DNA of 64,000 nucleotides from an uncultured Bacteroidia bacterium. GTDB lineage: Bacteria > Bacteroidota > Bacteroidia > Bacteroidales > UBA932. The DNA lies in assembly GCA_902782225.1 (NCBI GenBank), contig CACZMF010000008.1:1-64000 (forward strand). Reading direction: 5' to 3'. Position numbers and translations under genes: made by a program. The notes under the pieces are model-generated. The model did not search any database, had not been told where the DNA came from, and saw only the letters and a program-made list of their open reading frames with translations. Every line of letters begins with the position of its first letter. Position 1 is the stretch's first letter. Positions 8,025 to 14,368 of the stretch are shown here, one piece after another.

Positions 8025-8813
8025 TTAGTCTATCTTGAAGTCGGCGTACACGGGCAGGTGGTCCGAAGCGTAGTAGCCGTCGTACAGGCGGTCATTGCAC
8101 ATGTACAACAGAGGGGTGGCGTTCCGGTAGTAAACATAGTCCAAATGATTCTGGTGCGTGTACATATTGCGTTCAAGGTTGAATCCGTTGAAGGTGCAGT
8201 AAGGGCCATACTTGAGGCATTCGCTGTAGTAGGCGTCGCTCCACCACTGGCGGTACACTACCGTTGCCGGGTCCGACGGCTGTGCGTTCATGTCGCCGAC
8301 GAAGAACGAAGGGAGACCGGCCGTGTTGTACATCTGCTCCATCTGCTTGTACTGTGGTGCGTACTGTACCCTGGCATCGGCATCCAGGCATCCGTGAGTC
8401 ACCATCACGAATATCCTGGTGCCGGTTTTGCCGTTTGTGAGCACTGCGCAGCAGCCTCCGCGCTTCTTGGTGCCGTCGTTTACCGTCATGGCGGACGGGT
8501 TTGAGCCCAGCCAGAAGTAGTGCCAGTCGCTCAGGGTGAACATGTCCTTGCGGTAGGCAAGGCCCATGGACTCGCCGCTGCTGGAGCCATTTCCGGACGA
8601 TACGTTCGGGTTGAAATACCTTATCGTATACGTGTCGGCAAGCTGCTCACTGAGGTAGGTCTTGATGGCGTCACTGCATTCGTTCAGGCCGAATACGTCG
8701 AAGGCGTTGTCGCGTATGGATCTCACCACCCTGGTCTTGCGGTTGTCCCAGTTGTTCTGCTCATCCTCCTCGGTAGTGATGTAGCGGACGTTGTAGCTAC
8801 CCACGCGCACCAC
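8025..8813 (-). CDS. EEP-superfamily phosphoesterase domain, probably part of the upstream ORF
   Basis: This 262-codon frame carries every catalytic block of the endonuclease/exonuclease/phosphatase superfamily: VGSYNVRY, GLNEC, VTHGCL, VGDMNAQP, LDYVYY and ASDHLPVYADF. It lacks a signal peptide and an ATG start; the first usable codons are GTG at 8813 and 8810, directly before the catalytic core. It is in the same frame as the lipoprotein ending at 8826, separated only by one TGA and four sense codons. The DUF6259-like gene of the same operon has an equivalent EEP domain fused at its C-terminus. The natural product may therefore be a lipoprotein-EEP fusion interrupted by a nonsense mutation, a sequencing error or a read-through stop. 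The enzyme should hydrolyse a phosphodiester or phosphomonoester; the substrate is unknown. Confidence 0.8.
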   Translation of the reverse strand: MVRVGSYNVRYITTEEDEQNNWDNRKTRVVRSIRDNAFDVFGLNECSDAIKTYLSEQLADTYTIRYFNPNVSSGNGSSSGESMGLAYRKDMFTLSDWHYFWLGSNPSAMTVNDGTKKRGGCCAVLTNGKTGTRIFVMVTHGCLDADARVQYAPQYKQMEQMYNTAGLPSFFVGDMNAQPSDPATVVYRQWWSDAYYSECLKYGPYCTFNGFNLERNMYTHQNHLDYVYYRNATPLLYMCNDRLYDGYYASDHLPVYADFKID

Positions 8814-8825
8814 CTCGTCGTCACT

Positions 8826-13485: not shown

Positions 13486-14368
13486 GGCAGATAACCGGAT
13501 AATGGTCCGAAATGTAAGTGACGCCATAGTTCTTGCCGCTCACAGTCCGGAATTCACTCACGATGACATTCCTGTAGAAAATATGGTCCAGGTTGGAGTT
13601 GGAGCCGCCGCCGTAGTTGTTGAAACTCAGGGTGGCGTCTGTCTTCACAGCCTTTTCCCGGGCATTGGACAACCATTCGTAGTAGGGTGCAAGCCCTTTT
13701 TCCGGAAGGGATGTGTTCATATCCCCGACGATAAACAGCGGTGCATCCTCCCCTGCCGCAGCCTTCATCCGGCTGATGTTCAGCGTGGCGGCGTTGGCGC
13801 GGGCCGTATTGTCCCTGCTTTCGCTGCCCAGAGGCATATGCGTGTCTGCCACAAAGAACTCTTTCCCTGAACCCCGGTGCCGGAACTGCCCCCAGATCGT
13901 GGTCCTGTACTGGGTCTCTTCGTTCCAGCCGTTCACAGATGGCTTGTCCGGAGTGCCGCTCAGGAAAAAGGATTTGCACTGCAGTGCCTCCAGGGCAGAG
14001 GTATTGTACATCAGGACGGTGTTACCGCCTTTGGATGTGCCTGTACCGGGGACCTCGAACAGCTCATATCCATCCAGAAGGTTTTTCAGGTCCTGCCGCT
14101 GGTTCTTGGTGGCTTCCTGCATACCAATCACATCGGGGCGGATTTCCTTCACCATTTTCTGGACAGCCGCCTTACGCCTGTCCCAGTGCCTGTCGCCGGT
14201 ATCGGCCGCGATGGTGGAGCTGCGGACATTGAACGACATGACAGTTATCTGGGCGGCTTTTCCTTCCGACGGGGAGCCGGGCTCATCTTTCCCCTGCTCG
14301 CAGCAGGATAGAAGAAGAGCCGGGAGGAAGAGGCACAAAAGCCTTGACATCAGATTAATAGCCCTCAT
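13469..14368 (-). CDS. EEP-superfamily phosphoesterase lipoprotein
   Basis: A 299-residue lipoprotein with lipobox LLLSC (Cys22) and a full EEP domain: VMSFNVRSS, IGMQEAT, DTHMPLG, VGDMNTS, LDHIFY and SDHYPV. The family includes sphingomyelinase-, DNase I- and inositol-phosphatase-like metal-dependent hydrolases, so phosphodiester or phosphate cleavage outside the cytoplasm is expected. The first ATG (14368) overlaps the end of susD by 14 bp; Met7 at 14350 is an alternative start. Its place directly after SusC/SusD argues that phosphate removal is a core step of this utilisation system. Confidence 0.88.
   Translation of the reverse strand: MRAINLMSRLLCLFLPALLLSCCEQGKDEPGSPSEGKAAQITVMSFNVRSSTIAADTGDRHWDRRKAAVQKMVKEIRPDVIGMQEATKNQRQDLKNLLDGYELFEVPGTGTSKGGNTVLMYNTSALEALQCKSFFLSGTPDKPSVNGWNEETQYRTTIWGQFRHRGSGKEFFVADTHMPLGSESRDNTARANAATLNISRMKAAAGEDAPLFIVGDMNTSLPEKGLAPYYEWLSNAREKAVKTDATLSFNNYGGGSNSNLDHIFYRNVIVSEFRTVSGKNYGVTYISDHYPVICHATIL

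Follow-up and report, generated by a model that had tools for sequence, protein, structure and literature searches.

A conserved in-frame TGA as a candidate readthrough site between a surface protein and an EEP phosphoesterase in a Bacteroidales SusC/SusD operon

The 64,000-nucleotide stretch analysed here (the window) covers positions 1 to 64,000 of contig CACZMF010000008.1 from an uncultured Bacteroidia bacterium (assembly GCA_902782225.1; Bacteroidales, UBA932) and is labelled contig C8 of its own genome (G000, 2.58 Mb). Its minus strand carries an operon in the order BACON protein, SusC, SusD, EEP3, DUF6259-EEP2, FIM, EEP1, MFS transporter, sugar isomerase (ISO), cupin protein (CUP), ROK kinase and, at the end, a protein of 334 aa that is conserved. 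An earlier note on this DNA had reported that a single SusC/SusD operon encodes three EEP-superfamily phosphoesterase domains whose catalytic motifs are intact, one of them fused to a DUF6259-like domain, and this finding is real, being confirmed by Pfam and by inspection of the motifs by eye. What is new beyond it is an in-frame TGA that joins 8826-10292, the gene of the fimbrillin-like surface protein FIM, to 8025-8813, the listed frame of EEP1. This conserved TGA probably makes EEP1 a readthrough extension of the surface protein. That conserved, programmed UGA readthrough equips some copies of a surface lipoprotein with a phosphoesterase is rated slightly above an even chance; readthrough together with a phosphate-bearing glycan as the substrate falls a little short of one. 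If true, a cellular gene of gut Bacteroidales would undergo a conserved form of recoding, of which the portions of the literature covered by a search gave no description, and readthrough would decide how much of the surface protein carries the enzyme and how much stays bare.

FIM (8826..10292, minus strand, as are all operon genes below) has a lipoprotein-type start (AACTPE, by eye) and is the proposed first half of the readthrough protein. The proposed readthrough site is its TGA (8826..8828), the single stop between FIM and the EEP1 frame, which begins at the codon next to the TGA and ends with a TAA of its own (8025..8825; the listed open reading frame starts from a GTG) and matches PF03372 with an E-value of 2.4e-10. 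Because the two lie in one frame across one TGA, EEP1 is probably not a separate gene but the continuation of the FIM frame. Relatives of EEP1 at an E-value of 1e-30 were present in 42 of the 400 genomes of the genus that were searched, and the loci of 30 matches were compared: nine FIM-linked orthologues (in G000, G817, G676, G728, G989, G776, G806, G828 and G778) and 21 more distant relatives. Exactly one stop was found in the 100 codons upstream of each of the nine orthologues, and in every case it was a TGA lying 5 to 8 codons ahead of the EEP core. None of the 21 next-nearest relatives had a stop within 30 codons upstream; 14 were open for all 100 codons (BACON-like by eye) and in the remaining seven the nearest stop was 33 to 79 codons off. 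G778 holds two tandem FIM-TGA-EEP units, so that at all 10 FIM-EEP1 junctions the two parts share a frame across a TGA. The junction may also have outlived an exchange of its upstream partner. In G817, EEP1 is 93% identical to that of the window, FIM only 51%, and the C-terminus of FIM resembles that of G728 (79%), which points to a replacement of FIM in which the same junction survived.

Conservation at the protein level begins soon after the TGA. In the seven genomes with a short linker, codon 3 is Asp (GAC in 4, GAT in 3), codon 4 is Glu (GAG in 6, GAA in 1) and codon 5 is Val (GTG in 4, GTT in 1, GTA in 2), so that these codons differ at third positions only. One feature expected of programmed readthrough, a downstream frame in phase (nine of nine genomes) under coding selection (codons 3-5 in the seven), is present. 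EEP1 itself is under purifying selection: dN was 0.05 to 0.34 in seven pairs against the window, and dS was 0.46 in one pair and above 1 or saturated in the other six. With dN well below dS, the possibility that EEP1 is a pseudogene was ruled out.

The main rival to readthrough is reinitiation, in which ribosomes would stop at the TGA and start again at a nearby GTG or TTG, making EEP1 a separate cytoplasmic phosphoesterase that acts on imported sugar phosphates. This is considered rather unlikely, although a GTG or TTG precedes the catalytic Asn in seven of the nine genomes and an ATG in one (G778), which counts against readthrough; EEP1 of the window adjoins the MFS transporter and cytoplasmic enzymes, and Bacteroidetes rely little on the Shine-Dalgarno sequence for initiation or reinitiation, according to the part of the source consulted (PMC6728339). 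A nearby ATG is missing at nine of the 10 FIM-EEP1 junctions, and neither the start codon of EEP1 nor its position is conserved. In G776 there is no ATG, GTG, TTG or CTG ahead of the catalytic Asn (codon 12), the first GTG being codon 33, so no usual start is available. Moreover, codons 3 and 4, which are conserved as protein, lie upstream of every candidate GTG or TTG in the seven short-linker genomes. In G817, G728, G989 and G776, FIM-EEP1 has no MFS gene after it, and reinitiation would yield an enzyme without a signal peptide, none being visible by eye on EEP1 alone.

Other gene junctions were used as controls. In the same operons, two FIM-FIM junctions and nine junctions from EEP or DUF6259-EEP to FIM had gaps of 82 to 226 bases in mixed frames, with an ATG start in 10 of the 11 and a TTG in one. 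The junction from a BACON-FIM protein to EEP3 in locus L290 is in frame across a TAA, with an ATG one codon further. Neighbouring genes on the same strand, at least one of the two being annotated, formed 961 pairs in the loci examined; 157 of the pairs were in frame without another stop, and 142 of these had an ATG within 20 codons. The FIM-EEP1 junctions made up nine of the 15 pairs without such an ATG; the other six were SusD-unknown (L051), ROK-unknown (L116), BACON-EEP (L171; TAA, first ATG at codon 23) and EEP-GntR (L179, L242 and L289). It was also observed that TGA was the stop in 12 of the 142 in-frame pairs with an ATG, one of which should be the first FIM-EEP1 junction of G778, compared with 274 among all 915 annotated genes, which looks like an avoidance of TGA at places where its readthrough would join neighbours.

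Trivial and known causes of an in-frame TGA were also considered. A genome-wide reassignment of TGA was ruled out by the same 274 of 915 annotated genes that end with it (fetched loci, some overlapping), and a sequencing error by the presence of the TGA in nine genomes. Selenocysteine insertion was rejected on finding no tRNA-Sec above the cut-off in any of the nine genomes (150 candidates scored per genome; six of the nine genomes less than 90% complete). The four best matches of this search were tRNA-Ser/Leu, and ARAGORN, applied to 4 and to 11 match loci that cover a subset of the tRNAs, gave nothing but ordinary anticodons. An RNA-structured recoding element was likewise rejected: the two junction sequences that were folded showed no structure (z-scores positive, +0.88 and +0.64), and Rfam gave no match in positions 1-24000 of the window.

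Several of these results weigh against readthrough. The absence of RNA structure in the two sequences and of a tRNA-Sec means that no known readthrough stimulator was found. Codons 1 and 2 after the TGA vary in amino acid among the seven short-linker genomes, and the insertions and deletions of whole codons in the linker are the same fact as the in-frame state and do not constitute additional evidence. The stop codon of EEP1 itself does vary across the nine genomes (TAA, TAG and TGA in three each), which counts for readthrough, though the stop of DUF6259-EEP is constant as well (TAA in seven of seven of the same operons, with TAG, TGA and TGA in three others), and for this reason a constant stop alone is weak evidence. 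Finally, the nine loci are of common ancestry. In the EEP1 tree G828 and G778 are deepest, with weak support, and because G000, G676 and G817 are close, about seven separated lineages can be counted. The base after the TGA, an A in all nine genomes, does not decide for or against readthrough; a U at this position reduces it, as stated in the part of the source consulted (PMC5289835).

If readthrough occurs, ribosomes that pass the conserved UGA would make a lipoprotein, FIM-EEP1, with EEP1 as its C-terminal half; most of the product would then be FIM without the enzyme, and FIM-EEP1 the smaller share. Partial views of two E. coli studies offer points of comparison: TGA is the leakiest stop, with readthrough of up to 14% cited with lactose and more under nutrient scarcity (PMC11126739), and a tRNA-Trp with a 4-bp anticodon stem raises UGA readthrough (PMC13092985). 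Since the growth medium and its nutrients reportedly govern how often UGA is read through in E. coli (PMC11126739), the FIM-EEP1 fraction could, by analogy, rise under sugar scarcity. A third source, in the part consulted, added no bacterial case of this kind (PMC8211752). As a separate observation, the tRNA-Trp(CCA) of this genome (L285, 101-174) has by eye a G-U top pair in the anticodon stem, from which no interpretation was drawn. The arrangement resembles the in-frame UAG readthrough of murine leukaemia virus GagPol (PMC5009743, consulted in part), in which a domain in the same frame lies downstream of one stop and two products are made; here, in contrast, the product would be a bacterial surface enzyme, the codon is UGA rather than UAG, and no stimulatory structure was found in the two sequences folded. 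DUF1735, described in the part of the source consulted as a membrane-bound spacer for such enzymes (PMC11216935), offers a useful parallel to FIM. A structure model of FIM-EEP1 had a mean pLDDT of 55, with the EEP half mostly above 80 and the FIM half too uncertain to be used. FIM matched no Pfam or NCBIfam family, and it is 32% identical over 187 aa to the C-terminus of the BACON-domain protein encoded at 19315-21606.

The three EEP domains all match PF03372 (Exo_endo_phos) over the full profile (1-225) and above its curated cut-off. EEP3 (13469..14368; E 1.3e-18) has a lipoprotein-type start (LLSCC, by eye), and EEP2 is residues 730-991 of the fused protein (10519..13527, likely start 13485; PF03372 E 2.3e-14, PF19773 E 4.1e-19). 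The Asn, Glu, His, Asp-x-Asn and Asp-His residues of the superfamily are present in each, and the motifs read by eye in the translations are SYNVR, GLNE, VTHG, GDMN and SDH in EEP1; TYNLR, GVEE, VTHA, GDLN and SDH in EEP2; and SFNVR, GMQE, DTHM, GDMN and SDH in EEP3. An AlphaFold2 model of DUF6259-EEP2 had a mean pLDDT of 71, patchy in the barrel and mostly about 90 or above in the EEP part, for which Foldseek returned 3g6s, 3l1w, 3mpr and 4c1r as nearest; the closest solved chains to EEP3 were 3mpr and 4c1r, the latter a mannosyl-6-phosphatase. Orthologous operons, judged by sequence, indicate that the three-EEP arrangement is not due to chance.

The EEP superfamily includes DNases, and EEP3 gave weak NCBIfam matches, far below the cut-offs, to exodeoxyribonuclease III and ExeM/NucH profiles. 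One could thus suppose that the EEP domains are secreted nucleases which scavenge phosphate or nucleosides and whose position in this operon has nothing to do with the glycan. This is regarded as quite improbable, given that the best solved relatives are bacterial EEP proteins including 4c1r, that other phosphoesterase families stand beside DUF6259 in relatives, and that in this genome the fusion partners of EEP comprise carbohydrate-enzyme domains of four kinds, namely DUF6259, GH27-type, SASA and esterase. Two of these fusions, one with a SASA carbohydrate esterase and one with a putative esterase, were seen at L054 5666-7906 and L056 8373-10055, and they mark EEP as a shuffled domain in this genome. 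PF03372 matches number 18 in this genome and 5 to 22 in each of 12 genomes of the family.

The DUF6259 domain (PF19773) occupies residues 283-506 of the fused protein and scores 69.2 bits against a curated cut-off of 28.7. It is rare in the order, being found in seven of 198 genomes at an E-value of 0.001 and in five above the cut-off. With Foldseek, the N-terminal part of the fused model matched best GH36 alpha-galactosidases and an A-type blood galactosaminidase (4fnu, E 7.2e-20; 9ayu, TM 0.61 by target), at 11-13% identity and with the barrel of low pLDDT in places. Because of these matches, DUF6259 may be predicted to be an alpha-glycosidase of galactose type, resembling clan GH-D in its modelled fold. 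A literature search for DUF6259, for EEP enzymes or phosphodiesterases belonging to utilisation loci, and for NAGPA of Bacteroidota returned, in the parts of the sources consulted, nothing on point.

The relatives of DUF6259 show which phosphoester-cleaving enzymes accompany it. Three unrelated families were found at DUF6259 loci: EEP (the window, G676, G674, G494 and G680), calcineurin-like phosphoesterases (G224, G451, G616, G635 and G641) and the NAGPA phosphodiester glycosidase (G684, G680 and G682). The distances were counted with curated models in 13 genomes, namely this one and 12 picked for having relatives of P0002; the 15 DUF6259 genes were the P0002 matches at an E-value of 1e-30 in the 12 and the one of this genome (two further copies in G635, L231, being left out), and the 153 control SusD loci came from 150 of the 291 SusD matches listed in the 12 genomes and 24 of this genome, after dropping those within 15 kb of DUF6259 and merging those within 12 kb. 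Rows below the cut-off were left out (7 of 145 for EEP, 1 of 43 for NAGPA, 4 of 87 for MetallophosN). At least one of the three families was found within 6 kb of 12 of the 15 DUF6259 genes and of 38 of the 153 controls (Fisher P 3.6e-5); the figures were 12/15 and 53/153 within 8 kb (P 0.0013) and 13/15 and 55/153 within 10 kb (P 1.7e-4), the P values being inflated by the relatedness of the loci. Taken singly within 6 kb, EEP was found at 6/15 versus 16/153 and MetallophosN at 4/15 versus 11/153 (P 0.03).

In G224 the calcineurin-like enzyme (MetallophosN/C, Pfam) lies between DUF6259 and the MFS gene, and it has a homologue in G451 and G616; in G616, which is outside the count, it adjoins DUF6259. 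These three loci (L062, L230 and L229) share with the window SusC, SusD, DUF6259, MFS, isomerase and cupin in the same order, and differ in the calcineurin-like phosphoesterase, in an added DUF4380 protein and in having no EEP that could be found. The NAGPA-type cluster comprises 16 proteins, encoded at 16 of the 80 CUP loci a short way upstream of MFS and on the opposite strand; its identity is based on Pfam for one of the 16 and on BLAST clustering for the rest. In G684, G680 and G682 NAGPA is near a DUF4855-DUF6259 fusion, and fusions of this kind of about 1050 aa were noted by local HMM in L218, L220 and L221. As relatives have calcineurin-like and NAGPA enzymes next to DUF6259 or next to this sugar cassette, a phosphate-bearing glycan fits as the substrate, which strengthens the phosphoester reading without proving it. 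That unrelated phosphoesterases take each other's place would hint that glycans bearing phosphate are an overlooked class used in the ruminant gut, and would give DUF6259 a testable role.

The earlier note had proposed a system for a phosphate-linked or phosphate-decorated glycan or a glycolipid headgroup. In its favour are the intact motifs, the purifying selection on EEP1 and the other phosphoesterases in relatives; on the other side, GH28 replaces DUF6259 in two relatives. Homologous loci without EEP, which the note had named as an argument against itself, do exist in G224, G451 and G616, yet they carry the calcineurin-like phosphoesterase, and the objection holds only by half. Further points speak against a phosphate-bearing substrate. 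EEPs are frequent near SusD in any case (the 16 of 153 controls), MetallophosN alone was not significant at 8 or 10 kb, nor NAGPA alone at 6, 8 or 10 kb, and by our own grouping about seven of 10 locus types are positive. Three of the 15 DUF6259 genes, in G647, G641-C15 and G681-C20, have none of the three families within 6 kb; in G647 there is an EEP 9.9 kb from DUF6259, beside a regulator. Six further genomes with DUF6259 matches were outside the count (G616, G570, G576, G614, G564 and G402), among which G570 and G576 had no phosphoesterase by local HMM and the locus of G614 ends at the contig end. In seven neighbours from L225 (G570), L227 (G641-C15) and L228 (G681-C20), Pfam recognised domains of GH43, SASA esterase, BNR, TPR and regulator type but did not find a phosphoesterase. 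GH28 in place of DUF6259 hints at a pectin-like backbone, on which phosphate is not expected.

Another explanation is that the substrate is a non-phosphorylated plant glycan and that the EEP fold hydrolyses another ester or is a spare accessory. GH28, GH39-like, GH127-like and GH3 enzymes adjoin the same MFS-ISO-CUP-ROK cassette, many relatives come from ruminants and the G635 locus pairs EEP with a 3-keto-disaccharide hydrolase. Every metal-site motif is intact and other phosphoesterase families occupy the same place in relatives, and the plant-glycan explanation is held to be unlikely. Under the preferred reading, with a phosphate-bearing glycan as substrate, SusC/SusD would import the glycan, the EEP phosphoesterases and the alpha-glycosidase-like DUF6259 enzyme would trim it outside the cytoplasm, with EEP3 lipoprotein-like and EEP2 tethered to the glycosidase, and the MFS transporter, isomerase, cupin isomerase and ROK kinase would process the released sugar. 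The matches of ISO, CUP and ROK were remote and gave no sugar identity. A route for mannose or another hexose is likely, since CUP resembles phosphomannose isomerases and a 32%-identical relative of CUP in G103 (L178) stands beside GH92 and a gene that is ROK by eye. Among the best 80 of 206 named CUP relatives, all were records of Bacteroidales or Bacteroidia metagenome-assembled genomes, some titled Prevotellaceae, Bacteroidaceae or Alistipes, and many were titled after the gut of goat, buffalo, deer, yak or sheep.

The pairing of EEP with DUF6259, which the earlier note had suggested looking for in other Bacteroidales, is kept in relatives: 10 of 13 annotated loci, chosen for their EEP1 relatives, carry the fusion (the window, G676, G817, G728, G989, G776, G806, G710, G1004 and G811), and the arrangement is maintained. 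In G674 and G494 DUF6259 and EEP are separate, adjacent genes, and G828 keeps three EEPs with GH28 in place of DUF6259, which counts for the phosphoester reading. The genus has further SusD loci that hold at least three EEPs, though they are rarer than EEP itself; this many within 10 kb were found at five of 174 SusD positions (C8 and C23 of this genome, G676, G635 and G641). The locus on C23 (L047 9999-19499, L048 762-2852) is a second three-EEP SusC/SusD locus, with one EEP fused to a GH27-type alpha-galactosidase. In G635 (L232, G635:C3, 9491-18778), a SusD locus has four EEP matches, one protein having two EEP stretches, and these adjoin a GFO/IDH/MocA oxidoreductase and a 3-keto-disaccharide hydrolase.

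Among the nearest known systems is BT3783 of Bacteroides thetaiotaomicron, a mannosyl-6-phosphatase (PDB 4c1r) that presumably belongs to a yeast-mannan locus and that we take to be a single stand-alone EEP. The EEPs of the window share its fold and motifs and its occurrence in Bacteroidota (EEP3 against 4c1r, E 2.8e-20; EEP2 model, TM 0.83 by target), whereas here there are three of them, one fused to DUF6259 and one behind a TGA. The operon has the usual content of a SusC/SusD polysaccharide utilisation locus, with surface proteins, a glycosidase-like enzyme, MFS, kinase and regulators; it differs in its three phosphoesterase domains and in the proposed recoding.

SusC and SusD are adjacent and share the operon with the DUF6259 enzyme, which is carbohydrate-active by fold only. 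The SusD-like protein is encoded at 14355..16217 (PF07980, E 2.4e-39), the SusC-like TonB-dependent transporter at 16223..19375 (PF07715, PF13715, PF00593) and the BACON-domain protein, whose C-terminal module is common with FIM, at 19315..21606 (PF13004, E 4e-6). On the other side of EEP1 are the MFS transporter (6762..8003; PF07690, E 1.1e-58), the AraA/FucI-like isomerase ISO, a remote assignment (5312..6775; PF02952 E 0.002 and PF24856 E 0.0048, both below cut-offs), the 623-aa CUP, with a cupin half like mannose-6-phosphate isomerase (3434..5305; phosphomannose isomerases 1qwr and 1zx5, E 0.001-0.003), the ROK sugar kinase (2677..3510; PF00480, E 1.2e-13) and the conserved cassette-associated protein of 334 aa, aldose-epimerase-like by eye and without a Pfam or NCBIfam match (1826..2830). 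Two genes on the plus strand flank the operon, an AraC-type regulator downstream (934..1800; PF12833, E 4.5e-19) and a DUF6377 protein, possibly a regulator, upstream (21710..23221; PF19904, E 4.9e-46).

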